A DNA stretch of 64,000 bases. Origin: Pseudoalteromonas sp. XMcav2-N (GTDB lineage: Bacteria; Pseudomonadota; Gammaproteobacteria; Enterobacterales; Alteromonadaceae). How positions within the stretch are numbered: position 1 is the first letter of the stretch; each line of letters opens with the position of its first letter. Where the stretch lies: NCBI RefSeq assembly GCF_024124545.1, contig NZ_JAMXSF010000004.1:62001-126000 (forward strand). The letters are read 5' to 3'. Below, piece by piece: positions 35,713 through 49,605 of this stretch. A program made the position numbers and the translations under genes. A model generated the notes under the pieces. That model was not told where the DNA came from, did no database searches, and saw only the letters and a list, made by a program, of their open reading frames with translations.

Positions 35713-36257
35713 CAGACACCATAGATGAAATTGCCTGTTTGTTTAGACTGTTCGGTGACAATACTTACGGCGAAGCATGCACACAGATCAGCCATGCAGT
35801 CAGCAGCGCCTGGCATGCACAACAGCATCAGGCAGCGCCTGACATGGTGTGCGCAGCATTTTTGCATGATATTGGCCACTTTATCGCGGACAAAGCTCAG
35901 TTAGAGGGGCTGGACCAATGGGGGCACAGTGAGCATGCTGACATTGCCAGTCACTGGCTCGCACAAAAGGGGTTTCCCGCTAGCGTTTATTTGCCAATTC
36001 GCTATCATGTGCAGGCAAAACGCTACGCTGCCAGAATAGCTGGAGCCCGGTGCTTATCTGACGCAAGCTGGCAGACCTTGCAACAGCAGGGCGGAGCAAT
36101 GACTGACAGCGAAGCGCGTGCGTTTGAAGCGCTCGGCTGTTTTGCTCAGGCGATGGAACTGCGCCGATATGACGACTCAGGCAAACCCAGCCACATCATC
36201 GACACAGACATTGCACCCTGGCTGGCGCTGACCACTCAGGTGTTAACAGGACAATAG
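35709..36257 (+). CDS. HD-domain protein, PhnZ-like
   Basis: A 182-aa HD-domain protein with the metal motif AAFLHDIGHF, a following WGHSEHADI and YLPIRYHVQAKRY, as in the phosphonate-associated HD group that includes the di-iron oxygenase PhnZ. PhnZ cleaves 1-hydroxy-AEP to glycine and phosphate, but it needs PhnY to make that substrate, and no PhnY-type dioxygenase is in the window. It overlaps the FAD gene stop by 4 nt. Activity on another alpha-hydroxyphosphonate is possible. Confidence 0.82.
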   Translation: MTDTIDEIACLFRLFGDNTYGEACTQISHAVSSAWHAQQHQAAPDMVCAAFLHDIGHFIADKAQLEGLDQWGHSEHADIASHWLAQKGFPASVYLPIRYHVQAKRYAARIAGARCLSDASWQTLQQQGGAMTDSEARAFEALGCFAQAMELRRYDDSGKPSHIIDTDIAPWLALTTQVLTGQ

Positions 36258-36263
36258 GGACTT

Positions 36264-36956
36264 ATGCTGCTTTATAAAGAAATCAGGCAATATTTATTTG
36301 CGTTGATCGCCGATCATCCCGAGCTGAAAAAGCTGCCTTCCGAGCGCGAGCTACAAGATACGTTCCGCTCCACCCGGATCACTGTAAGAGAAGCGCTTAT
36401 CAGGCTGGAAGCCGAAGGCGTGATTTATCGTCAGAACCGTAAAGGCTGGTTTATCTCTCCACCCCGGCTGAAGTGGGATCCGGTTAAAAAGGTGAACTTT
36501 TACCAGCTTGCACAGGAGCAGCAGTTTACGCCATTAACCCAGGTGGTGTCCTTTGAGACAACCCTGGCTTCGAATGTCGTCAATCAGGCATTTGCAGTAC
36601 AAAGCCCGGCAACGTTCCATGCCATTTGCCGGGTGCGCTCTTTGGATGAACGTCCTGTGATGGTTGAAGAGATCTACTGTTTGGCCGCCCAGTTTGATGA
36701 TCTGGCGTCTAAGTCCTTAGAAGGCTCGGTGACCACCATTTTTGAACGAGATTATGGGATTAACGTGACCCATGAACGCAGCAGCCTGGTTGTCACAGCT
36801 ATTCCCGATGACAAAGCTGACCTGCTTAACGTGAACAGTGGCGCGTTATGCCTGAAGATAATTCGCCATCGCTTTAATCAGGCCGACAAGTTGGTCGATT
36901 ACAACATAGAATACTGGGTACACAGTGCGATAGAAATCGAAGTGGACAGTCAGTAG
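36264..36956 (+). CDS. GntR/UTRA transcriptional regulator of the phosphonate genes
   Basis: A 230-aa regulator. Residues 1-70 are a winged helix-turn-helix of the GntR type (LPSERELQDTFRSTRITVREALIRLEAEGVIYRQNRKGWFI), and residues 80-230 are a UTRA effector domain (RVRSLDERPVMVEEIYCL, HRFNQADKLVDYNIEYW). It is the last gene of the unit, 6 nt after the HD gene. The obvious target is the TGGTCTAGACCA palindrome present in the two promoters of the cluster. The effector may be AEP or phosphonoacetaldehyde (inference). Confidence 0.88.
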   Translation: MLLYKEIRQYLFALIADHPELKKLPSERELQDTFRSTRITVREALIRLEAEGVIYRQNRKGWFISPPRLKWDPVKKVNFYQLAQEQQFTPLTQVVSFETTLASNVVNQAFAVQSPATFHAICRVRSLDERPVMVEEIYCLAAQFDDLASKSLEGSVTTIFERDYGINVTHERSSLVVTAIPDDKADLLNVNSGALCLKIIRHRFNQADKLVDYNIEYWVHSAIEIEVDSQ

Positions 36957-36977
36957 GTTGACTCGCTGTTTGACCCA

Positions 36978-37005
36978 TAAAAGGCCGCACATTGCGGCCT
37001 TTTTA
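36978..37005. terminator. bidirectional terminator between gntR and phnW
   Basis: AAAAGGCCGCA and TGCGGCCTTTTT form a long GC-rich stem with a 3-nt loop and A/T tracts on both sides, between two convergent genes. Confidence 0.9.
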
Positions 37006-37022
37006 GTGGCTTATGGTGGAGT

Positions 37023-38114
37023 TTATTCCCAGTATTTGACCTCAGCAATCGCGCTGATAAGTCGTGCTATGTCTTCGGGGTACACGGCGCCGATATTGCC
37101 AATTCGAAAGCAGTCTGCGTCGGATACTTTACCGGGGTAAATCACAAAGCCCTTAGCCTTCAGAGCTTCATAAAAGCGTTTAAAGTCATAGTTAGGTGCC
37201 GTGGGGGAGTAGAAAGAAGTGATGATGGGCGAGTGCAAATTAACCGGTAACAAAGGCTCAAATCCTAATTCCTGCATGCCCTGACATAACAGCTGCTGAT
37301 TTTGCATATAGCGCGCCTGTCTGGCTGCTACGCCGCCTTCATCGGCCAGCTCAGTGAGTGCCTGAGCAAAGGCCCTGACCACATGGGTTGGTGACGTAAA
37401 GCGCCACTTGCCATTCGATACTTCCATGGTATGCCACTGATCATACAGATCCAGGCTGAGCGACTTTGCATTGCCTTTACAGCGCTCAATGGCTGCTTGC
37501 TTGCCGATCACAAAGCCAAAGCCTGGGACACCCTGAATACACTTATTGGCGGAGCTGATTAAAAACTCAATATTCAGCTTTGCCACATCCATAGTGATGC
37601 CGCCAAAACTCGACATAGCGTCAAGGATAAAACGCACCTCATAATCGCTACATAGTTGTGCTACGGGCGCCAGGGGGTTGAGCATACCTGTGGTGGTTTC
37701 GCAGTGCACCATTGCCAGGTGACTAAACCCGCCAGTAGCCAGCTTTACAGCAATCTGTTCTAAATCTGGCAGCTGGGTTTCTTTAAAGCTCAGCACTTCA
37801 TGCGCCAGGCCAAGTATCTGACAGATCTCTGCCATGCGTTTGCCATATGCGCCATTGTTGATCACCAGTATTTTGTCTTCGGGCAACAGGGCGCTGCCAA
37901 GCACAGATTCAACAGAGGCGGTGCCGCTGCCTTGCATCAGTACGCTGGTGTAACCGGCTGAGGGGGTTGCCAGCTTAATTAATGTACGGCGGATTGTTTG
38001 GACTACGTCCAGGTTATAGTCATCATCCCAGGTGCACCAGTCTTTCAGCATTGCTTGTTTCACTGTATCTGAGGTGGTTAACGGGCCAGGTGTTAAGAGT
38101 AAGTAGTGAGTCAT
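37023..38114 (-). CDS. phnW: 2-aminoethylphosphonate--pyruvate transaminase
   Basis: A 363-aa class V aminotransferase; typical family length. It starts [29 protein letters not shown], which matches PhnW, and has the PLP lysine in [18 protein letters not shown]. It turns AEP and pyruvate into phosphonoacetaldehyde and alanine, feeding PhnX. It is on the opposite strand to the rest of the cluster but shares the operator, which lies 17 nt before its ATG at the expected transcription start. Confidence 0.95.
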
Positions 38115-38131
38115 AATGGGTATACCTCTGT

Positions 38132-38173
38132 TGGTCTAGACCAAATTGTATGAAGCCCAAAGTGTTTAAACAA
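38132..38173 (-). promoter_or_regulatory. phnW promoter with GntR-type operator
   Basis: On the minus strand a -35 TTGTTT (38168-38173), a 17-nt spacer and a -10 TACAAT (38145-38150) are followed at once by TTGGTCTAGACCAA (38131-38144). The operator covers the start point, the position of a repressor. Its 12-bp core is identical to that before the receptor at 29225. Confidence 0.8.
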
Positions 38174-38544
38174 TATGGCACCGTCACCTTTCACAGAAAT
38201 GTCATGTTAAAGGGGCAAGCACGCGCTGTGTGCGAGGTCGCTTAAAGCAGGATAATTATCTGTATTTATAATTGGTTACATTTATTTCAGCGCACAGGTA
38301 TCGCCCTACCTGAAGTGCTATGTTGTTTTATTACTAAATCCCTAAAAAAGGTAAAAGTAACGCGCAGTTAGTCACTTAGGGCTTACCGGGCCGTCAACGG
38401 TGTCACTTCAGTCAGAAGCAGGTATGCACTTTTGTCAGCTCAGGCTCATTGAGAATATCTTGGTTAGTAAAATAGATTGTTGAAATTTCATCAAAAATGA
38501 GACAAGTTTGGGCCCGATGTATTGGAAGAAAAAGGAAGGAACGG
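38174..38544. other. intergenic region before the FG-GAP protein
   Basis: About 370 bp without a gene. It must contain the promoter of the FG-GAP protein; AAGGAAGGA at 38531-38539 is its ribosome site. No palindrome of operator quality, repeat or RNA gene stands out. Confidence 0.5.
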
Positions 38545-39837
38545 GTGAAAATACAATCAACTATGAAATATACCCTGTGTGCCATGCTAACAGCACTGGC
38601 TGGTCATAGCTTTGCGGCGCCAGACCGATTGCTTGCCAATGACGGCAAGGCGGAAGACTATTTTGGCTATGGTGCAGCGATTGACGGCAACACGGTTGTG
38701 GTGGGCGCGCACAAAGCGGATATCAATGGGATTAATGACGGCGGCGTGGGCTATGTCTACGTATTAGGGGAGAAGGGCTGGCAGCAACAAGCTAAGCTGG
38801 TTGCAAAGCCTCTGTCTGCTGATGACACCCTGGGTGGTAAGGTGGTCTTAAAGAATGACATCGCCATGCTCGGCGGTATGAGACGAGATGACAAAGGCAA
38901 AGATGCCGGTGCGGTGGTGGCCTTTGCGCGTAAAGCAGACACATGGACACAAACTGAGATTTTCACCGCGCCAGATGCCAAACCGGGCGATGCCTTTGGC
39001 CAGAGTGTGGCATTTACTGACAAAGTGCTGGTGATCGGTGCTCCACGTAACGATGCAAAGGCGAATGATGCCGGTGCTGCATATATTTATATTCGCTCTG
39101 GTGATATCTGGCGCTATCAGAGCAAAATCATGGCCAGTGATGGCGCGGCAGGCGATCTGTTTGGCATCGACGTCGCAGTTGATGGCAATACCATAGTCGT
39201 TGGCGCTGACTTGCATGATAAAACGGCAGAAAACGCCGGAGCCGTATACATTTACGTGCAAGACGGGGAGCAATGGCATCAGCAGGCCAAGTTGATGGCG
39301 TCCGATGGCGGTGATACCGATATCTTTGGCGTCAGGGTCGCAATTTCAGGAGATACGGCACTCATCTCGGCACGACGCGATGACGTAGAGGGTCTGGGCG
39401 TGGATGCCGGCTCTGCCTATATTTTTGAGCGCAACGGCACACGCTGGACCGAGGCGCAAAAACTGACTTCTCCTGATGGTGCAGCTGATGATCGCTTTGG
39501 CCGCGGTGTGGCACTCAGTGGTGACATGGCGATCATCAGTGCGATGAACCATGACGCACAAGGCAAAGACACCGGCGCGTTATATGTTTATAAAAAGCGC
39601 GCTGATGGCTGGCACTATTCATTCAAAGTGGTCGCTAAAAATGCGCAGCCAGGCGATCAGCTCGGCTGGAATGTCGGCCTCTCCGACGGTAAAGCTGTGA
39701 TAGCCACTCCACATCATGACGCCAATGGTAAAGAGTCCGGTGCGGTCTACGTACAGGACCTGAACCAGTACAGCGCATTTCATATTGAAAACCATATTTC
39801 TGTCGCGGAGAAAGGGAAAGTGAAGTCTACGCGGTAA
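38545..39837 (+). CDS. secreted FG-GAP / integrin-type repeat protein
   Basis: A 430-aa protein with a signal peptide (YTLCAMLTALAGHSFAA). I chose the GTG at 38545 because AAGGAAGGA lies 5-6 nt upstream; the ATG at 38563 has none and the ATG at 38497 adds a basic leader. About seven repeats of the form DxFGxxVAxxGxTxVVGAxxxDxxxxxAGAxYIY fill the mature protein, as in FG-GAP beta-propellers. The DG(A)AGDxFG units are calcium-site-like. It stands alone after phnW, with a terminator. A role in adhesion or carbohydrate binding is only a family guess. Confidence 0.82.
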   Translation: MKIQSTMKYTLCAMLTALAGHSFAAPDRLLANDGKAEDYFGYGAAIDGNTVVVGAHKADINGINDGGVGYVYVLGEKGWQQQAKLVAKPLSADDTLGGKVVLKNDIAMLGGMRRDDKGKDAGAVVAFARKADTWTQTEIFTAPDAKPGDAFGQSVAFTDKVLVIGAPRNDAKANDAGAAYIYIRSGDIWRYQSKIMASDGAAGDLFGIDVAVDGNTIVVGADLHDKTAENAGAVYIYVQDGEQWHQQAKLMASDGGDTDIFGVRVAISGDTALISARRDDVEGLGVDAGSAYIFERNGTRWTEAQKLTSPDGAADDRFGRGVALSGDMAIISAMNHDAQGKDTGALYVYKKRADGWHYSFKVVAKNAQPGDQLGWNVGLSDGKAVIATPHHDANGKESGAVYVQDLNQYSAFHIENHISVAEKGKVKSTR

Positions 39838-39905
39838 TGTGATTTCACTATATGGGGGGAGTAAATCGCTACAGTAAGAAATAGAATCTTAGGTTATTTT
39901 CGACT

Positions 39906-39932
39906 GGGCTTCAGGGTGAAGCCCTTTCTTTC
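39906..39932 (+). terminator. intrinsic terminator of the FG-GAP gene
   Basis: GGGCTTCA and TGAAGCCC form an 8-bp stem with a GGG loop, followed by TTTCTTTC. Confidence 0.85.
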
Positions 39933-39949
39933 AGAGCTGAATCGAAAAA

Positions 39950-40840
39950 TTAATTTTTTTCTGAGATACAGTCTTTTAAGTATGAGAGCAATTCATCTTT
40001 GTTACACGGCTTAGATGAAAAATATGTTCGAGCTTTTGCTAATAGTTTACCTACCTCAGGTCCGGGAGCCAATCCTAATATGGTAATAATATCATTTCCC
40101 GTTATGGGGATAACTAAGGTGCTATCATCAAGCATTGACTTTTCTATGAGCCTGGTAGCTTCGAACTCAAAACTAAAGCCGTCTTCAAGTATTTCTAGTG
40201 CTTTGGTCCATCGGCGTAGGTTTCTGTTTCTGAACTCAACTGTGTTCAATGAGTTTCTTCCCAAACGTATTTTGATATCTTCGATTAGAGGATCAAATTT
40301 TGCTGCTGGCCATGAGCGCTTTAATCTATTGTGCCATTCAGCTGCATAGTATGCACAGTTCTCTGAATCCTGTTCTAAGCTTCTAACTACTTCTTCTATT
40401 TTTTTTAGTAAAGAAGTCGCTTCAAGAACTAATTGTGTGTAGCAAGCTGCCCAGTCTTCATCTTTATTTGGTATTGAAGTGCTACATGCCCCTCTACACC
40501 AACTCTCTGCTACACGCCTAGTTTCGGCATCGGAGTTTTCAAAACCTAAGTTGTGATGCAGTTCTGTCCTGAGTGAACGAACAACCTCAAGATGCTCGTC
40601 TATGATACTTTTATCTACAACTGAATAAGTTTGCCCTAAGTCTTTTAGAAATTTTATACTTACACGACCACTCTCAAAATACAGGCAATATAACCAAGAA
40701 GTAGCCCTAATAAACGATGGCTCCGGACTATTTCGGTTAGGTAAAGCTACATTTTGTTCCTGAAACGCATGAGTATGGATAATGCTTTGAGATAGCCGAT
40801 TAATACGTTGGCTAATAATAAGGATTTCTTCAAAACTCAT
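39950..40840 (-). CDS. HEPN-like partner of the SIR2-like/NTPase protein, unknown
   Basis: A 296-aa, mostly helical protein that I do not recognise. Residues 84-97 read LEVVRSLRTELHHN; R91-x4-H96 fits the R-x4-6-H motif of HEPN ribonucleases, and the surrounding helices (about 60-165) would fit a HEPN bundle. The last 90 residues (LVIPITGNDIITILGLAPGPEVGKLLAKAR) look like a poly(A)-polymerase/tRNA-nucleotidyltransferase C-terminal helical motif. Its ATG shares one base with the upstream stop (TAATG), so its synthesis is coupled to the 1141-aa protein. Composition is AT-richer than neighbouring genes, a sign of transfer. Confidence 0.65.
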   Translation of the reverse strand: MSFEEILIISQRINRLSQSIIHTHAFQEQNVALPNRNSPEPSFIRATSWLYCLYFESGRVSIKFLKDLGQTYSVVDKSIIDEHLEVVRSLRTELHHNLGFENSDAETRRVAESWCRGACSTSIPNKDEDWAACYTQLVLEATSLLKKIEEVVRSLEQDSENCAYYAAEWHNRLKRSWPAAKFDPLIEDIKIRLGRNSLNTVEFRNRNLRRWTKALEILEDGFSFEFEATRLIEKSMLDDSTLVIPITGNDIITILGLAPGPEVGKLLAKARTYFSSKPCNKDELLSYLKDCISEKN

Positions 40841-43800
40841 TACCTTACTCCTCTTCTTCGTACAGGTTCAGCGACTGGGCCGATAAAGTTAAATGCGATG
40901 TAAAAGCCTCCTCTGATTTGGGCTCCACGCCTAAATTCTTGCTCTGGAAAATCTTTTTGAAAAATATCGATCTGTTGTCGAGTACCCTCAACTTGCACGC
41001 GAGCTTTCCCTGAGTTATTTCTATCATTTTGCGTTATTTTTCCATAAAACAGCTTTGGTTTTCCATCGGAACCAGTCCATAGGTGATGCTTAATTATCCT
41101 CCTTGGGTCGCTAAAAGCTGTATCACGGCTCAAGTCTCGCCAAATTTCAATAGCTAGGTTCTCTCGATTTGATCTCCAACGAATAACTGCTTGTAAGTAT
41201 TTGAAACGATTATCCCCATTATCGCCCTCTATACTCTGCAAGTGCTCTAGTATGTTAGATATACTTTGCAAGTCTTGGGCGTCATTTGGTATGGCGGATT
41301 TTTCTTTATCAAATAGATAGCTACGTGTTGCTACTAGCCAATGCGCGCGCAGCAAATATCTAAGGCTACGAGAGTCAAACTTAATATCCTCCCAGTTGCT
41401 TTCTAGGAATGGAATAACTTTACCTGCTCGGTCAATATCCTGTTGTTTTTCTTCTTTGTTTCGCAGTGAACCGCCCAGCTTATGGGCCCTTAGATAAAAT
41501 CCAGCTGGAGAATTCATTAAGTCCAATTGCTCAAGTGCGTGCTCTTCGAGCTTTTTGTCTTCCAGTACTAATGAGAGTTTATGTTGACGCTCTAAATATT
41601 GTTGTCTTTGGACTGAGTCTAGTTGCGTGTCATCGACCTGTTCTAAACTATCTAGAATATCGGCTACTAATTCCGCGTGATGAGTGAGCTCCCATGTTCT
41701 TTTTTTTAGCAAGTCATGAGGCACCCACAAGCTGACATCAATTGCATGGTATGTGTCTGCCACATTTCTAGCGGATTTCGCTGAAGCTCGGGCTGCTTCG
41801 TAAAACCCCCAAATTTCATGTTCTGCCATAGGCTCTTCGATTTGTTGTACAGCCCTAAAACCATAAATTGCTGCCCTCTCAACTCTTAGGTTTGCACAAG
41901 CTCGCTTTAAACCCGGAGAGCTACTATCACCAAATTGAGCTAAAGCAAGATCAATTATTTGGCGAGCATCGTCCAGTATTTCGCTAGTATCTAATTGATC
42001 AACTGCACTTGGTGCCTTTATTGCTCTACGCCGAAGAGTTGCTTCTTGCAACATCAAACTAGGATCTGCAAATCTCCGTTGATTTCTCATGTCAGTCAAT
42101 GCTAATGCTATATCGTAATACCATTCTTGATATCGCGTATTGAAGAGACCATCGACACCGAGCCGATTAATTAGATCTAACAGAAATCTCTTTTCACTAT
42201 TTGAATTTGAAACTGATGTCGGGTTTGCTGCCTGTATAAGCTCTACAACAATCGCCGCTTCGGCGGCTGTGCTGCCTAACCTGCGTGCAGTTATCAGCTC
42301 TGCTTCGACTTGCAGCCTTGGGTGAATAAATACGTCATCATATTCATTGGAGCTCCAACGAAATAAGTCGATTTCAGAAAATAAGCAGCTAATATCTGTT
42401 TTGTTGTCGCTACCTTCAACTAGTCTCATTAGCAGACTTATTGGGACTGCAACATCTAGCTTTCCTGCCATCATTACACAATCTACTATCTTGGATGCGC
42501 CGTCAGAGACAACTCCCATGAATTCATTTAAACGCTTTGCTAGTAGCTCTATTGGCGGCGATTTGTAGCCTGCATCGATAAAGGCTTGCGCAAATGCGTT
42601 ATTGGACTTTATTGAACTTGTTCTTTTTTGATGTCCTTTTGTGCGCAGAGTGCTTTCCATAACATGGGCTTCTTTACCTAGGCCTTGAGCAAGCTGATAT
42701 CTCGATGTTGGTAAGAGTCTGTATATTGTAGGAAGTAGATAGGACGTGTCTGAAATTTTGTAATCTTGATCTGTATATTCTTTAAGAAGTGTTACAAGAA
42801 TGGTTCTCTCTAATTCATTCAGCTCTGCATCGGCTTCAACTAGCTTCTGACGTGAATCAGATTCGATTTTTATTCGGTAAGTGCTACCAACAACAATAAC
42901 TTTTCTACCTCGACTATAAAAGCCCCGAACAAGGTCTTGGTACCACTTCATTGGAGCATTGGCGTCGCAAACTATGAGTGTACATGCGGCCCCTACGTTT
43001 TCAGATAACAAACAAAAATCATCGAGTTCCTCTACTGAAGGCACTCTTTTTGCCCTGCTAGATAACAGTACGGGAAACTCGTATTCTTTACGAATATTAT
43101 ATGCAAGTTTGGCCAGCGATATGCTTTTCCCTGATCCAGATTGGCCATGAAGTAAAATAGGTTCTTTATTTTTAGTTGGATCAGAAAGCGCACTCTTGAC
43201 TATATGTAAAAGCTCATCGTCAAACTGGCGATCTATGGAGAAGCCTCGTTGTATGCCTTCAATGATGTTTAATGAGCCTTCACTGTGCCCATGGAACTTT
43301 CTAAATTCGGCAAAATTCAAGTCGCTTGCTAGAGGCTCAGGAGCCGCTAACCAAGAATCTTCAATAATGCTAGCGCCTGTAGAAGTTTTAAGCCTAACAG
43401 ATGGGTCAACATCTAGAGTGCGGTCTTTGATAGTAACGCAACTCGGAAGGAGAGTGTGTGCTACATCTTTTAGAGGTAGCTGCCCGAGTTCTTTTAATGT
43501 AGATACAGCAGAAGATAGTCTTTCAGGTATAAATGTTATAGGACCATTTGGTTCAGACAACATCTGCAACAAGCTACTGTTTTTATTTTCACTTGAGGAC
43601 CATCCGAACCACAAAACCTGTCCAGGTTTAAACTTTGCGAGCACACCATAAAGATCTTCTGGATCAAGCCAATCATCTTCTAAACTCACACCATCTATTA
43701 TTAGTGTTCCAATTGACGTTGTTGTATCGTAAAGCCTACTCAGAAGGGGAGAAGCGTTACTAACTCTTCGTTGATAGTATTGCTGAATGCTTGAAGGGGG

Positions 43801-44265
43801 TTTTTCATTATCAGCTAGTTCCCCTGCAACTCCATAAAGGTAAGTCAAATGTAAGTTATTTTTCTGACGAGGAGAAATGAGGGAGTGCGAATTGCACAAG
43901 ACAGACTCAACATCTCTGATTCCTGTTCTGAAAAAAGATGGAAGGGTAGGGCTTATGTGGCTTGTAAATACTGCATTCCAGGGTAATTGAGCAATATTTT
44001 CAAACCAGTCAGGCTCAATTTGCATCTGATAGCGAGCAGCTATCCACTCATAAAATTTATCATCAAGCTGTGTTTTATTTAGGAGCGATGATAGAGAAGC
44101 TGTTTGATTTAAGGGTATCTCCAATTGAAATCTTTCAACAGCTGATTGGATTACTGGGTCTGGGTGTTTACCAGTAGATAGGAATCGTTGACCTGCCAAA
44201 AGGACAAGCGGTCTTTTTTCAAGAACGGTTTCAACTAAAATTTGAAGGTCGGATACTGATCGCAT
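40840..44265 (-). CDS. SIR2-like / STAND-like P-loop NTPase, candidate defence protein
   Basis: A 1141-aa protein preceded by AAGGTAGCT. Residues 1-260 have the SIR2-like layout: LVLLAGQ (20-26), WNAVFTSHIS (96-105), LTYLYGVAG (140-148), TLIIDGVSLEDDWL (187-200), VLWFGWSSSEN. The positions that are N(xD) and H in active SIR2 NADases read SHIS and LYG, so catalysis is doubtful. A P-loop GQSGSGKS (374-381) and Walker B TLIVCDAN (429-436) form a STAND/AAA-type ATPase. Residues 480-1060 are helical, sensor-like; the end (about 1070-1141) resembles a small beta-barrel. It overlaps the HEPN-like gene. AT-rich composition and isolated placement suggest horizontal gain. Confidence 0.75.
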   Translation of the reverse strand: MRSVSDLQILVETVLEKRPLVLLAGQRFLSTGKHPDPVIQSAVERFQLEIPLNQTASLSSLLNKTQLDDKFYEWIAARYQMQIEPDWFENIAQLPWNAVFTSHISPTLPSFFRTGIRDVESVLCNSHSLISPRQKNNLHLTYLYGVAGELADNEKPPSSIQQYYQRRVSNASPLLSRLYDTTTSIGTLIIDGVSLEDDWLDPEDLYGVLAKFKPGQVLWFGWSSSENKNSSLLQMLSEPNGPITFIPERLSSAVSTLKELGQLPLKDVAHTLLPSCVTIKDRTLDVDPSVRLKTSTGASIIEDSWLAAPEPLASDLNFAEFRKFHGHSEGSLNIIEGIQRGFSIDRQFDDELLHIVKSALSDPTKNKEPILLHGQSGSGKSISLAKLAYNIRKEYEFPVLLSSRAKRVPSVEELDDFCLLSENVGAACTLIVCDANAPMKWYQDLVRGFYSRGRKVIVVGSTYRIKIESDSRQKLVEADAELNELERTILVTLLKEYTDQDYKISDTSYLLPTIYRLLPTSRYQLAQGLGKEAHVMESTLRTKGHQKRTSSIKSNNAFAQAFIDAGYKSPPIELLAKRLNEFMGVVSDGASKIVDCVMMAGKLDVAVPISLLMRLVEGSDNKTDISCLFSEIDLFRWSSNEYDDVFIHPRLQVEAELITARRLGSTAAEAAIVVELIQAANPTSVSNSNSEKRFLLDLINRLGVDGLFNTRYQEWYYDIALALTDMRNQRRFADPSLMLQEATLRRRAIKAPSAVDQLDTSEILDDARQIIDLALAQFGDSSSPGLKRACANLRVERAAIYGFRAVQQIEEPMAEHEIWGFYEAARASAKSARNVADTYHAIDVSLWVPHDLLKKRTWELTHHAELVADILDSLEQVDDTQLDSVQRQQYLERQHKLSLVLEDKKLEEHALEQLDLMNSPAGFYLRAHKLGGSLRNKEEKQQDIDRAGKVIPFLESNWEDIKFDSRSLRYLLRAHWLVATRSYLFDKEKSAIPNDAQDLQSISNILEHLQSIEGDNGDNRFKYLQAVIRWRSNRENLAIEIWRDLSRDTAFSDPRRIIKHHLWTGSDGKPKLFYGKITQNDRNNSGKARVQVEGTRQQIDIFQKDFPEQEFRRGAQIRGGFYIAFNFIGPVAEPVRRRGVR

Positions 44266-44581
44266 AGCTACCTTAATAATGTTATTACTATGTCGTATGC
44301 AACACCTTGAATGGCAACTTAAATTTCACAATTTGTATGCAGAAAGAGGCTGTGATAACTAAGTGTTAAGGTATCGGTGAATACTTATTGGTTAAAATAC
44401 TAACAGGCTACACTAAGGTTTTACAGGTTATTTCATCGTAACATTAAAGTTTACCTAAATATTTTCATGATTGAAGTAAACTGTCATATTGACTTAAGTT
44501 TAGCAGTAGCTACTACCTCTGTTGCGATTTAGTTCGAATGAATACTAACAATTCATGTTTAAAGTGGTACCGGAATAGTTA
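44266..44581. other. AT-rich intergenic region upstream of the defence-like unit
   Basis: About 315 bp of AT-rich sequence with no ORF or RNA gene that I can support. It should contain the promoter of the two-gene unit on the minus strand. No att-like direct repeat was found by eye. Confidence 0.4.
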
Positions 44582-44617
44582 ATACATTGTTGAGTTTCTT
44601 TAGGCTCAACAATGTAT
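44582..44617 (-). terminator. long hairpin after gor
   Basis: ATACATTGTTGAG and CTCAACAATGTAT are perfect 13-bp inverted repeats with a 10-nt loop, 33 nt after the gor stop on the minus strand. The following tract is AT-rich but not a T run, so it is a probable terminator or mRNA end. Confidence 0.6.
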
Positions 44618-44649
44618 GCATGTTTGTTATATTGCAGGAATGACTGCGC

Positions 44650-46008
44650 TTAGCGCATAGTAACAAACTCTTCAGACCCTGTTGGGTGAATCGCCACTAC
44701 CGAGTCAAAATCCGCTTTGGTGGCGCCCATCTTCATGGCCACACCAAAGCCCTGGATCATTTCATCTACGGCAAAGCCGATGCCGTGCAGACCGACGATT
44801 TTTTCGTCCTCGCCGGCACACACCAGTTTCATTTTGCAGGGCTGGCGGTGCTGGGTTACCGCGGTATACATGGCCGCAAAGGTGGAAGTGTATACCTTGA
44901 TGTTGTCTTCACCATACTGTTCGATGGCTTCTGGCTCGGTCAGGCCGATGGTGCCGATGGGCGGGTGGCTGAAGACCACGGTTGGGACCAGGTTGTAGTC
45001 CATTTTTGCGTTGGGCATATCCGGATTAAACAGGCGCTCTGCCAGCATACGGCCAGCTTTAACCGCGACAGGCGTCAGCTCAATGCCGCCGTCCATAATG
45101 TCGCCCAAAGCATAAATGCCAGATACCGAAGTGTTCTGATATTCGTCTACTTTGACGTAGCCGCCTTCTGTGATGGTCACATCGGTGGCAGCCAGGTTGA
45201 TTTTATCAGTCACTGGCTCACGACCAATCGCCCAGATCACTTGCTCAACCGTGTGTGATTCGCCGTTTTCTAAGTGCAGGGTTACGCTGCCGTCGTCGTT
45301 TTTGCTCAGTGATTTAGGTACGCTGTGAGTGTGTAGTTTGGGCCCTTCTTTGTCCATGACTTCGGTCAGGGTGTCGACCAGGATAGGGTCAAAGTTACGC
45401 AGCGGGGCATGCTTACGCACAAACAGATGTGTTTCTGTGCCCAGGCTGTGTAGTACGCCTGCCAGTTCAACGGCAATGTAGCCTGCACCAATCACAGCCA
45501 CGCTCTTTGGCTGTGCCTTGAGCTCAAAGAAATCATTAGAATCTATGCCCAGCTCCGCACCCGGGATATTTGGAATCGACGGGCGGCCACCCACGGCGAT
45601 ACAGATATGGTCAGCGGTGTAGTGCTCGCCGTTAACTTCTACCGTGTTGTTATCAACGAATTTGGCAAAGCCGTTGATCACGGTCACGCCATTGCTGGCC
45701 AGGTACTTATTATAGCCCTGGTGAATACGGCCAATGTAGGCTTCGCGGCTTTCAACCAGTTTGCCCCAGTCGAAGTCTTTAACTTCTACATCAAAGCCAT
45801 AATCCGGTGCGTACAGCTTAATGGCTTCGGCCACCTGGGCACCGTGCCACATCACCTTTTTGGGCACACAGCCCACGTTTACACAGGTGCCGCCCATATG
45901 CTTAGCTTCGATGAGTGCCACTTTGGCGCCACGCATTGCAGCGCGGTTGGCTGAGGCAATACCACCGCTACCGCCACCAATGGCGATATAATCAAAATGT
46001 TGTGCCAT
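44650..46008 (-). CDS. gor: glutathione-disulfide reductase
   Basis: A 452-aa flavoprotein starting at [16 protein letters not shown] (AGAGAA upstream); the ORF opening at 46041 adds eleven unlikely residues. FAD motif GGGSGG, redox disulfide [18 protein letters not shown] motif [13 protein letters not shown] with the arginines of VRKHAPLR, and the C-terminal [12 protein letters not shown] with the catalytic His are all present. It reduces oxidised glutathione with NADPH in the cytosol. Confidence 0.96.
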
Positions 46009-46262
46009 GATTAATTCTCTATAAATGCTGATAAATGGCACTAGCTTAACACTATATTAGCCGGGGCAAAGTCCGGTGGGATAAATTTTTCCGATAGAGG
46101 CCATCGCTTTTTTCGATGGCACACGGGTAAGGTCCATCAGGTCAAACTAACACCGACTGAACAAACCCCGGTTTAATTTGTCTGGATTGGCTGGTGTACC
46201 TTGTTTTTTTTAAAGAAACACCCCAAATACAAAAGATAATCAAAGATCAACAGAGAGGCGTT

Positions 46263-48308
46263 ATGACTAACCCGTTAATTGGCATGGAAGGCTTGCCACC
46301 GTTTTCAAAAATTAAACCAGAACACGTTGTGGAGGCACTGAAACAAGCCATCGCACATTGCCGAGACACCATAGACGAGGTGCTGAAAAACGATTCATAC
46401 AGCTGGGAAAACCTGGTGCTGCCACTCGAAGAAGCCGACGATAAGCTGTCGCGCATGTGGTCGCCGGTTTCGCATATGCACTCGGTGGTTAATAACGATG
46501 CATTACGTCAGGCATTCGATGCTTGTCTGCCTTTGATCTCAGAATACAGTACTTATGTAGGTCAACATCAGGGCTTATATCAGGCATACAAGTCGCTCAA
46601 AGAATCAGACACCTTTGCAACACTGAGCACTGCCCAGCAAAAAACCTTAGAAAACGCATTGCGTGACTTCAAGCTGTCGGGCATTGCGCTGGCACCAGAA
46701 CAGCAAAAACGGTACGGCGAGATCAGTGCGCGTTTGTCTGAGTTGTCGTCTAAGTTTGGCAATAATGTGATGGATGCGACACAAGCCTGGACTAAGCATG
46801 TGACCGACGAAGCTGCATTATCAGGTCTGCCTGAGTCCGCACTGGCACTGGCGGCACATACAGCGCAAAGCAAAGAACTTGAAGGCTGGGTGTTCACGCT
46901 GGACATTCCTTCGTACCTGCCGGTCATGACGTATGCCGATAATCGTGAGCTGCGTGAAGAAATGTACCGTGCTTATGTGACCCGTGCGTCTGATCAAGGT
47001 CCGAATGCTAAAGAATTTGATAACTCAGAATTGATGAGCGAAGAGCTGGCACTGCGCCATGAACTGGCTCAGTTACTGGGTTTTGACAGCTATGCGCATA
47101 AATCACTGGCCACAAAAATGGCACAATCTCCTGAGCAGGTATTTACTTTCCTGAACGATTTGGCGCTACATGCCAAGCCTCAGGCCGAAAATGAGCTGGC
47201 TGAGTTAAAAGCATTTGCTGAAAAAGAGTACGGAGCTACAGAGCTGGCTGCCTGGGACTATGGCTATTATGGCGAGAAGCTGAAACAGGCCAAATATGCT
47301 ATTTCTGACGAAATACTGCGCCCTTACTTCCCGGCAGATACCGTATTAAACGGCTTGTTCGAAACCGTGAGCCGTCTGTTCGGCATTAAAGTGACTGAGA
47401 TTCAGGACTTTGATACTTATCATCCGGATGTGCGCTTCTTTGCAATTCACGATGCACAAGGCACTTTGCGCGGTCACTTCTATCTCGACCTGTATGCCCG
47501 TGAGCACAAACGTGGCGGCGCCTGGATGGACGACTGCATGGGTCGTAAAGTACGTGTCAGTGGCGAGTTACAAACGCCGGTTGCCTACCTTGTGTGTAAT
47601 TTCAATAAAGCGGTAGGTGATAAACCTGCGCTGTTTACTCACAACGAAGTAACCACTTTATTCCATGAATTTGGCCATGGTATTCACCATATGCTGACTC
47701 AGGTTGATGCATCAGCGGTTGCGGGTATCAACGGGGTTGCCTGGGATGCGGTAGAGCTGCCAAGTCAGTTCCTGGAAAACTGGTGCTACGAAGAAGAGGC
47801 ACTGGCGTTTATTTCCGGTCATTATGAGACGGGTGAGCCATTACCAAAAGCACTACTGGACAAGTTGCTGGCGGCGAAAAACTTCCAGTCAGCCATGCAG
47901 ATGTTACGTCAGTTAGAGTTCTCGTTGTTCGATTTCCATATCCATGCAGACTTTGACCCGGCTAAGCCATGCCAGATCCAGCATACTTTGAATGCGGTCA
48001 GAGAGAAGACTGCGGTCGTCAAGGCGCCGGAATTCAATCGCTTCGCACACAGCTTTAGCCATATTTTTGCTGGTGGTTACAGCGCTGGTTACTACTCGTA
48101 TAAATGGGCTGAAGTACTGTCGGCTGACGCATTCTCGCGCTTTGAGGAAGAAGGGATCTTTAACGGCCAGACAGGTTCCGACTTTATGCAGCATATCCTT
48201 GAGAAAGGGGGATCTGAAGATCCTATGACGCTGTTCACTCGTTTCCGTGGCCGTGAACCCAGTGTCGACGCACTGCTGCGTCACAGTGGCATCGAAAAAG
48301 CGGCATAA
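46263..48308 (+). CDS. prlC: oligopeptidase A
   Basis: A 681-aa cytosolic M3 zinc peptidase. I chose MTNPLIGMEGLPPFSKIKPEHV at 46263 (AGAGG 5-6 nt upstream); the longer frame from 46194 has no ribosome site. The zinc motif is HEFGH (H468, E469, H472), and the C-terminal HIFAGGYSAGYYSYKWAEVLSADAF is typical. It degrades short peptides, including cleaved signal peptides. Length and start match E. coli PrlC. A lipoprotein relative is encoded at 5064-7217. Confidence 0.95.
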   Translation: MTNPLIGMEGLPPFSKIKPEHVVEALKQAIAHCRDTIDEVLKNDSYSWENLVLPLEEADDKLSRMWSPVSHMHSVVNNDALRQAFDACLPLISEYSTYVGQHQGLYQAYKSLKESDTFATLSTAQQKTLENALRDFKLSGIALAPEQQKRYGEISARLSELSSKFGNNVMDATQAWTKHVTDEAALSGLPESALALAAHTAQSKELEGWVFTLDIPSYLPVMTYADNRELREEMYRAYVTRASDQGPNAKEFDNSELMSEELALRHELAQLLGFDSYAHKSLATKMAQSPEQVFTFLNDLALHAKPQAENELAELKAFAEKEYGATELAAWDYGYYGEKLKQAKYAISDEILRPYFPADTVLNGLFETVSRLFGIKVTEIQDFDTYHPDVRFFAIHDAQGTLRGHFYLDLYAREHKRGGAWMDDCMGRKVRVSGELQTPVAYLVCNFNKAVGDKPALFTHNEVTTLFHEFGHGIHHMLTQVDASAVAGINGVAWDAVELPSQFLENWCYEEEALAFISGHYETGEPLPKALLDKLLAAKNFQSAMQMLRQLEFSLFDFHIHADFDPAKPCQIQHTLNAVREKTAVVKAPEFNRFAHSFSHIFAGGYSAGYYSYKWAEVLSADAFSRFEEEGIFNGQTGSDFMQHILEKGGSEDPMTLFTRFRGREPSVDALLRHSGIEKAA

Positions 48309-48332
48309 GCCGTCTTTCTGGCGGCTTTTTGA
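48307..48332 (+). terminator. prlC terminator
   Basis: AGCCGTC and GGCGGCT (one wobble pair) form a 7-bp stem over TTTCT, followed by TTTTTG, overlapping the stop codon region of prlC. Confidence 0.75.
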
Positions 48333-48366
48333 ACACCTGTTCCCCGCATGCCGCCAGACCTGACTT

Positions 48367-48400
48367 AAAAACACCACATAAGTCGCTTGTGTGGTGTTTT
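48367..48400. terminator. second hairpin between prlC and the response regulator
   Basis: AAAACACCACA and TGTGGTGTTTT form an 11-bp stem with A and T tracts, so it can act in either direction. It backs up the prlC terminator. Confidence 0.7.
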
Positions 48401-48465
48401 CCATTCGCAAATTAGACAGTTCGCGCTATGCTGTTTTAGAGAACCAACCTTGTAGGGACCGCTGC

Positions 48466-49605
48466 ATGAGCAATTTAGTACTGGCCATTGATGACGATAA
48501 ACTGGTACATCACATTGTCGAACAATCCTTATTGCACAGCTGTAAAGTTATCCACGCATACAGTGGCGAAGAAGGGCTGAAAATGGCCCAGGAGCAACAG
48601 CCGGATATTATTTTGCTCGACATAGAAATGCCTGGCCCTTCGGGCTTTGAAGTGTGTGAGCGGCTGAAAGCGAACCCTCAGTTGTGTGATATTCCGGTGA
48701 TGTTTTTGTCGTCTAAGAGTGCCATTTCTGAGCGAATGCGCGGCTACAATGCTGGCGGGGCCGACTACATTGTTAAGCCTTTCGACAGCGATGAAATGCT
48801 GGCGCGTATTAAGGTGTTGGATGAATATCGCCGCCAATCGCTCAAGCTTAAGCAGGATGTGCAAAAAGCACAGATCACTGCCGAAATCGCGATGTCGGAT
48901 TCTGGCGATATGGGTCGGATCATGCGCTATGTGGGTCAGTCATATCATGCTCATGACCTTAATACCCTGTCTGAGTACTTTTTTGAATTTTTTGTACCCC
49001 TGCAATTGCAGGTTGCGGTGGCATTTTGGTATCACGAAGGCGAAGTCTTTTATTCTCAGGAAGGCGCCATTCAGCCACTGGAGCAGGAGCTGCTTGAGAA
49101 ACACCGCGATGGCGATCGCTTTGTGGACTTTGGTCGTCGTACCATTATTAACTATCCCAAAGTATCTCTGCTGATCAAAAACATGCCGATGGACGACGTA
49201 GGGTTATACGGCCGTTACAAAGATTTGTTGCCGCATATTCTCGAAGCCACCAATGCTAAAATCAAGGATATGGAGGTCAGTGAGGTGGCATTGAACAAAG
49301 TAGAGCAAATTGGCCTGGCGTTTGAATCGCTGAGCGATCAACTCGGTGATGTTGCCGCGGCATTTAACAGCAAACTGACCGAGTTTTCAGAGTATGTGGC
49401 CGATGAGCACGTCAATGGCAAGCAGGCTGAAATAAAACAATTGTATGAGCACTTTTCACTGGTTAATGATGAATTCTCGATTATTCGCTATAAACTGGGT
49501 GAAATCACCGAAGTTCGGCATGAACTTATCCAGAGTTTAAATCAGATGGCTAAACCCTGGGGTGAAGAAGACGTGCCAGCACAGACAGATATCGAGCTGT
49601 TTTAA
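48466..49605 (+). CDS. response regulator with unclassified output region
   Basis: A 379-aa protein starting at MSNLVLAIDDD (TAGGGA upstream); the frame from 48391 overlaps a terminator. Residues 1-120 are a CheY-like receiver with acidic pair IDDD, phosphoacceptor D52 in LLDIEMPG, and K in VKPFDSDEM. The remaining 260 residues have no DNA-binding, GGDEF, EAL or HD motif that I can see; they include a region FEFFVPLQLQVAVAFWYHEGEVF and a coiled segment near 280-340 (IGLAFESLSDQLGDVAAAF). It stands alone, so its kinase partner is unknown. Confidence 0.83.
   Translation: MSNLVLAIDDDKLVHHIVEQSLLHSCKVIHAYSGEEGLKMAQEQQPDIILLDIEMPGPSGFEVCERLKANPQLCDIPVMFLSSKSAISERMRGYNAGGADYIVKPFDSDEMLARIKVLDEYRRQSLKLKQDVQKAQITAEIAMSDSGDMGRIMRYVGQSYHAHDLNTLSEYFFEFFVPLQLQVAVAFWYHEGEVFYSQEGAIQPLEQELLEKHRDGDRFVDFGRRTIINYPKVSLLIKNMPMDDVGLYGRYKDLLPHILEATNAKIKDMEVSEVALNKVEQIGLAFESLSDQLGDVAAAFNSKLTEFSEYVADEHVNGKQAEIKQLYEHFSLVNDEFSIIRYKLGEITEVRHELIQSLNQMAKPWGEEDVPAQTDIELF

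Follow-up and report, generated by a model that had tools for sequence, protein, structure and literature searches.

Avs5 (AVAST type 5) combines an active SIR2 NADase with an nSTAND3 NTPase in one protein, and its predicted structure is reported to resemble SAMD9 (excerpts of PMC12931631). SAMD9 of animals carries a variant SIR2 domain, a STAND-like P-loop, TPR repeats and an OB domain in that order, and acts as a transfer RNA (tRNA) anticodon nuclease (excerpts of PMC5445408 and PMC13245274). In two-gene nSTAND2 systems, according to excerpts of PMC8195603, both genes encode STANDs, with a GT4 or HEPN domain fused to the inactive one. Here we describe a pair of overlapping genes, P1 and P2, in Pseudoalteromonas sp. 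XMcav2-N (GCF_024124545.1, contig NZ_JAMXSF010000004.1, positions 62,001-126,000; this 64,000-nt stretch is the window, and all positions are window coordinates) that is apparently an undescribed immune switch, resembling Avs5 and SAMD9 and thus already known kinds of immune protein. The 1141-residue P1 protein has, like Avs5 as excerpted, a SIR2-like domain, a STAND P-loop and a helical C-terminal half in the same order, and Avs5 is its nearest prokaryotic relative in layout. Unlike Avs5, P1 has an NTPase of nSTAND5 type and a SIR2-like domain that appears dead, and the presumed active site lies in a second gene, encoding the 296-residue P2.

The nSTAND2 systems are the nearest arrangement in the literature searched, sharing with the pair two genes and the combination of STAND and HEPN, while the pair has a single STAND, whose P-loop is intact, and a free-standing HEPN protein with a tRNA-tail domain. 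STANDs of P4 hotspots with SIR2, TIR or nuclease N-termini show a SIR2-STAND-repeat layout in defence loci; the excerpts of that report mention no HEPN partner with a CCA tail (PMC9122126). Human SAMD9 and SAMD9L and the bacterial SAMD9 family, in the published excerpts, likewise have a variant SIR2-like domain, a STAND-like P-loop and a C-terminal region in the order seen in P1, but their nuclease lies within the same chain, whereas the presumed nuclease here is a separate HEPN protein. SAMD9 also has glycine in place of the Walker A lysine (excerpts of PMC5445408), which P1 keeps (GKS), and AlbA_2 belongs to the core architecture of the SAMD9 family as excerpted, although lost in some members, while no Pfam match to AlbA_2 was found in P1 or P2. 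Of the SAMD9 order, P1 has the SIR2-like domain and the P-loop; the score for an OB domain is not significant and any TPR identity is conjectural. Because P1 lacks the P-loop glycine and AlbA_2, it is by this comparison an analogue of SAMD9, not a shown member of the family.

Both reading frames are intact and have base 40840 in common, where the P1 stop codon and the P2 start codon overlap as TAATG. An initial annotation, made from the letters of the window, had described this overlapping pair and its AT-richness, and both are borne out, by the open reading frame coordinates and by base composition. The G+C fraction is 0.416 in P1 and 0.384 in P2, compared with 0.490 for the remainder of the window; when 239 stretches of 4.3 kb were sampled, the six with the lowest values all overlapped the unit. 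The features are as follows.

40840-44265, minus strand: P1 gene, STAND-type putative sensor protein with a SIR2-like domain, an nSTAND_NTPase5 P-loop, a presumed helical region and a small C-terminal domain (open reading frame, profiles, alignments)
39950-40840, minus strand: P2 gene, with a HEPN-like bundle, a helical middle and a CCA-adding-enzyme tail (open reading frame, alignments, predicted model)
43336-44265, minus strand: SIR2-like N-terminal domain of P1, residues about 1-310, predicted inactive (profiles, motif alignment)
43951-43968, minus strand: position of the SIR2 TTNxD motif, reading FTSHIS (residues 100-105), catalytic Asn and Asp absent (PDB profile alignments, 46-sequence alignment)
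43831-43839, minus strand: position of the SIR2 HG motif, reading LYG (residues 143-145), catalytic His absent (PDB profile alignments, 46-sequence alignment)
42796-43254, minus strand: STAND-type NTPase domain, residues about 338-490, PF25199 (Pfam scan)
43123-43146, minus strand: conserved P-loop (Walker A) GQSGSGKS, residues 374-381 (sequence, alignment)
41071-42795, minus strand: presumed helical sensor or arm region of P1, residues about 491-1065 (by inference)
40840-41070, minus strand: C-terminal domain of P1, conserved ending FN[FY]IGP[VI]A (alignment)
40349-40840, minus strand: HEPN-like helical domain of P2, residues 1-164 (predicted model, alignment)
40553-40570, minus strand: predicted HEPN active site, R91-TELH-H96 (alignment)
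40673-40675, minus strand: E56, invariant acidic residue on helix 2 (predicted model, alignment)
40118-40348, minus strand: helical middle segment of P2, residues 165-241, duplicated along with the tail in a 405-residue homologue (alignment, predicted model)
39953-40117, minus strand: C-terminal tail of P2, residues 242-296, with the fold of the CCA-adding-enzyme tail domain (sequence and structure comparison)

When 84,980 species genomes were scanned with the P1 alignment and two short peptide patterns, 89 stretches matched and tblastn confirmed 28 of them, giving 27 distinct other loci; they were chosen by P1 alone, and P2 played no part. (Initial scans with a single sequence confirmed no locus.) A P2 homologue lies directly behind P1 in all 27, in hosts that include Pseudomonadota, Chlorobi, Chloroflexi, Desulfobacterota, Latescibacterota, Gemmatimonadota, a cyanobacterium, a Methanosarcinaceae archaeon and others (group names are partly our own assignment), so that conservation of the pair in varied genomes, raised by the initial annotation as a possible support, is found. 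Some of these loci appear to be near relatives of each other, such as L020 and L027, and the latter was left out of the P2 alignment of the loci. The mechanically called gap between the two genes ranges from -32 to +4 bases, with a 4-base overlap in 20 of the 27 loci. Distances among P1 and P2 proteins are correlated (r = 0.925 over 23 pairs, equalled in none of 2000 permutations), although the shared ancestry of the hosts may contribute; these are 23 of 28 pairs, with L007 and L022 (P2 shorter than 285 residues, without the tail), L025 (P1 in pieces under 900 residues), L027 and L021, where P1 is cut by a contig end, excluded. Homologues are near full length, the best 33 of 84 P1 matches spanning 94-100% of the query (8000 candidates scored) and the best 91 of 110 P2 matches 95-100%. 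Given such homologues and the adjacency in every other locus, the reading frames are not due to chance, and the P1-P2 pair is a real unit. As a separate observation, in Mesorhizobium hawassense (L025:9962-13400) P1 is split over three frames beside an intact P2, by decay or sequencing error.

Within this unit, the alignments place the strictest constraint on the HEPN site of P2 and not on the SIR2 site of P1. R91 and H96, the ends of RTELHH, have the R-x4-6-H spacing of HEPN domains and do not vary in any of the 137 non-gapped rows of a 138-row alignment (110 proteins of the first P2 search plus 28 new ones among the best 120 of 265 in a wider search); together with E56 they remain unchanged down to 21% identity. 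HEPN RNases carry this motif at the end of helix 3 and the start of the loop to helix 4, with an acidic residue in helix 2 (excerpts of PMC3710099). The predicted model of P2 is all helical and has the same placement, R91-H96 closing a helix of residues 77-96 ahead of a loop (98-100) with a predicted local distance difference test score under 50, and E56 lying in a helix of residues 39-57; the Ex3[KR] spacing is inexact, R59 giving Ex2R. The HEPN RNase motif recognized in the initial annotation therefore holds up, being both invariant and correctly placed, and P2 is a predicted nuclease.

The initial annotation overlooked the other end of the partner protein. The P2 tail has 38% identity to the tail domain of CCA-adding enzymes and superposes at 1.4 Å on human TRNT1. 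This domain is an RNA-binding module that grips the T-loop or elbow of tRNA, and tRNA is the presumptive target of P2. CCA-adding enzymes (TRNT1 and the bacterial class II enzymes) share with P2 the fold and sequence of the tail but have a nucleotidyltransferase head, for which P2 has no Pfam match; the N-terminus of P2 is instead HEPN-like, and its helical middle is unmatched to their neck or body. Three homologues (P0086, P0087 and P0088) have 405 residues, and the module of middle plus CCA tail is duplicated in P0087 and, by alignment, in P0086. No Pfam domain other than PF13735 was precomputed for the 110 P2 matches or for the best 120 of 265 in the wider search, where fusions far longer than P2 were outside the candidate range. 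The tail motif PGP is degenerate in P2 of L011, L013, L015 and L017-L020 while R91 and H96 are kept, so that substrate or docking mode may differ in these loci. Among known tRNA nucleases, PrrC and RloC have an ABC-like NTPase that differs from that of P1, and we know of no SIR2-like domain or CCA tail in either. They resemble P2, in excerpts of PMC3710099, as HEPN-type tRNA nucleases directed against phage under tight control. Cas12a3 resembles the present proposal by analogy only, with infection-triggered tRNA cleavage as its immune output, but it is a RuvC nuclease under CRISPR guidance that has a tRNA-loading domain of its own (excerpts of PMC12851939).

The N-terminal domain of P1 had been likened to the SIR2 effectors of Avs5 and SIR2 systems; a weak resemblance in fold stands, and a working active site does not. 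The Pfam family SIR2_2 appears under its cut-off in three of 22 N-terminal domains (L006, 1.5e-4; L023, 9.2e-4; L026, 5.4e-3) and is not listed for the window protein, and a SIR2_2 scan of 41 genomes gave no match in the window's own genome. Profile matches of the domain in the PDB are all weak: a histidine kinase (0.035), 7uxt (0.096; named 'USG protein', which we take to be a ThsA), ThsA 8wc0 (0.24), an HNH nuclease (0.45) and the NAD-dependent deacetylase 9v0g (0.49). The alignments to 7uxt, 8wc0 and 9v0g are concordant, pairing FTSSxD with TTNYD and LFG with the HG motif, whose His faces F. Among 46 aligned sequences, the Asn of TTNxD is present in five and the His of HG in none, and 38 show GQ in place of GAGxS; at these positions the window protein has GQR, FTSHIS and LYG. 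Four of the five sequences that keep the Asn (P0070, P0071, P0075 and P0081) are distant P1 relatives that read TTNCD without the HG His, and on this alignment they form a bridge to ordinary SIR2 motifs. Comparison with a profile of SIR2 proteins of the genus (three of the 14, without the motif used for cutting, were left out) recovered the expected register in one direction (E 0.053) and an unrelated 22 columns in the other (E 0.22). A scan for the iSirtuin family found nothing in 94 genomes, nor in 14 controls, and is hence uninformative. GAGxS and TTNxD are characteristic of Avs5, in which immunity is lost when Asn110, Asp112 or Glu202 is replaced by alanine (excerpts of PMC12931631). Because motifs essential in Avs5 are degenerate here, the N-terminal domain of P1 is taken to be SIR2-like in fold only, and is predicted to be inactive.

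The P-loop at residues 374-381, recognized initially as the core of a STAND-type NTPase, is confirmed. The nSTAND_NTPase5 family (PF25199) matches the window protein under its cut-off of 34 (26.4 bits, 6.9e-6) and exceeds the cut-off in four of eight relatives scanned (P0059, P0066, P0067 and P0069); nSTAND3 (PF20720) is missing from the matches of the window protein up to an E of 5, and is under cut-off in three of the eight (P0059, P0069 and P0081). One P1 relative, P0006, is named a TPR repeat protein by the Joint Genome Institute. The C-terminal 75 residues of P1 look like a cold-shock or OB domain by eye only: a cold-shock profile (29 of 30 loci used) gave a non-significant E of 0.25 and a score of 12.4, compared with a mean of 11.2 and a maximum of 20.1 for 60 shuffles, and the PDB held no informative match to this domain.

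The unit is sporadic in its distribution. Full-length P1 occurs in its own genome only, among 36 genomes of the genus and 60 in all; a P1 scan of the 60 gave matches in 15, of which 14 were P-loop matches of 37-51 residues below 19 bits and the remaining one was the own genome. A search for P2 in 398 genomes of the phylum, at E up to 1e-5, likewise found it in its own genome alone, and no copy of the pair was found in 72,556 plasmid and 50,697 phage records. The absence of P1 from 35 sampled congeners agrees with the initial view of gained, non-core genes, and a core gene of the genus was rejected as an explanation. Its neighbours are an FG-GAP-type gene (38497-39837) on one side and a glutathione-reductase-type gene (44650-46041) on the other, both named from their translations. 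When the equivalent interval was examined in six close congeners, four kept both flanking genes, all with other genes between them, including an AraC-like regulator and a 128-residue membrane-type protein; a fifth runs out in an IS3-type transposase where its contig ends, and the sixth has other genes without the left flank. The regulator has no orthologue in the window's genome, where the best match has 35% identity over 154 of 418 residues. Given the rarity of P1 and P2 and the other genes in the congener intervals, the pair has the appearance of a lineage-specific gain, at a site whose content varies.

Several observations concern the surroundings. In congener G086 (L069:8497-8781), a stretch corresponding to window positions 44656-44962 (307 bases, the end of the glutathione-reductase-type gene) occurs a second time at 84% identity, adjoining an esterase-like gene; it may be the footprint of an insertion at this variable interval. 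An inverted repeat of 16 pairs (G-T allowed) lies at 44582-44617, between the glutathione-reductase-type gene and P1. An Rfam scan of 36000-48500 at gathering scores gave no match, no tRNA was found in the window, and a promoter scan found 6 where 11.5 were expected.

For the defence context, we compared 213 nearest open reading frames, up to five on each side of the 27 loci, with PADLOC and Pfam, positions being taken from whole-genome searches and neighbour families from 25 of 151 and 25 of 99 matched families (PADLOC) and 25 of 109 and 25 of 61 (Pfam). Several of these frames match PADLOC models strongly. The association with known defence genes suggested at the outset is seen in four of 27 loci (IetS, DpdJ, AbiEii and an HmaA-like gene), a raw count that does not by itself show enrichment. 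In Rheinheimera pacifica (L007:6267-9921) an IetS frame ends 49 bases before P1, and position and PADLOC matches indicate that IetA is probably also directly upstream of P1; across the 27 genomes, IetS matches occur in three and at full length only in that one. In a Coleofasciculus genome (L028:61-4635), DpdJ, which we take to belong to a DNA 7-deazaguanine modification system, lies directly upstream, 100 bases before P1; DpdJ matches occur in 13 of the 27 genomes, full length and in one piece in this one only, which also has a second, more distant DpdJ-like frame elsewhere. In L003, AbiEii lies 1.1 kb downstream, with background matches in six of 27 genomes and near the pair in one. In L008, an HmaA-like helicase (557 bits) lies upstream of P1. 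That the pair was not recognized at the outset as a named system agrees with PADLOC (2023), whose models gave no family for either protein at E up to 1. No description was found in the open-licence literature searched, though one may exist elsewhere, and the pair does not appear in the excerpted text of PMC10853773, PMC12839542 and PMC7159879.

We propose that P1 and P2 form an immune switch made of two translationally coupled genes: a STAND sensor whose SIR2 domain is dead would control a HEPN nuclease directed at tRNA, and the nuclease would bring translation to a stop. We assign this model even chances. The C-terminal half of P1 would recognize a sign of infection, and its P-loop NTPase would bind ATP and assemble the protein, the SIR2-like domain, its catalytic residues lost, serving as an assembly, nucleotide-binding or docking module. 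Assembled P1 would then contact and activate P2, which would dock on tRNA through its CCA-adding-enzyme tail and cut it with its HEPN ribonuclease, so that translation halts and the phage cannot replicate. That P1 senses and P2 cuts tRNA would be the simplest account, since the HEPN site is the most constrained and a tRNA-binding tail lies beside it. We also entertain, more tentatively, a prokaryotic counterpart of SAMD9 in which the dead-SIR2 sensor, on infection, switches on the HEPN tRNase in trans and the CCA tail acts as a ruler from the tRNA elbow, many tRNA species being cut at one fixed distance. An anti-phage role is one that we infer for the pair. The neighbouring Pfam families among those listed are mostly metabolic, as they are around the window copy, and the HmaA-like case is weak, with HmaA-type matches in 24 of the 27 genomes and a stronger one elsewhere in the genome of L008.

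The metabolic neighbours would suit a toxin-antitoxin-like or stress-response pair, in which P2 is an RNase restrained by P1 and freed by stress rather than by phage; the overlapping two-gene layout and the fact that HEPN is a common toxin fold (excerpts of PMC3710099) point the same way, but P1, as a large STAND-type NTPase, belongs to a class with a known role in sensing invaders, and defence genes stand close by in the four loci above, so that we think this explanation unlikely. Somewhat less credible is a P2 that acts as a non-catalytic RNA-binding adaptor, its HEPN domain and tail only bringing tRNA or another RNA to P1 as the sensed ligand. There is a precedent in AbiA, which keeps R-x6-H yet, in the excerpted account, showed no nuclease activity and had a dispensable motif, and the tail is indeed an RNA-binding module; P1 would, however, be left without an evident effector, and the persistence of R91, H96 and E56 is the pattern of a catalytic site.

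A housekeeping system for tRNA or RNA quality control, outside defence, would account for the CCA-tail homology and again for the metabolic neighbours, but it is hard to reconcile with genes restricted to one of 398 phylum genomes (P2) and one of 36 genus genomes (P1), and with the other genes that four congeners hold in the same interval; we regard it as improbable. Least probable of all is a SIR2-like domain that is still active and consumes NAD as the effector, in the manner of Avs5 and SIR2-STAND systems, with P2 as an accessory. The layout of P1 recalls Avs5, SIR2_2 is listed for a few N-terminal domains, the four distant relatives keep TTNCD, and Avs5 tolerates NG for HG (excerpts of PMC12931631), but the losses at all three motifs, at positions that include those whose mutation abolishes Avs5 immunity, led us to reject an active SIR2 NADase as the effector.

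If the proposed switch is correct, it would add an immune pair without a match in PADLOC 2023, in which a SIR2 fold has been retired to a structural role and catalysis moved to a partner. It would also provide a HEPN nuclease with an RNA-binding domain that itself points to the substrate, so that the target could be tested directly, and a compact bacterial system in which to study tRNA cleavage under STAND control, of the kind seen in SAMD9. Should the reading of the tail as a ruler also hold, the nuclease architecture would be without precedent in the literature searched and would bridge bacterial Avs5-like and animal SAMD9 immunity.
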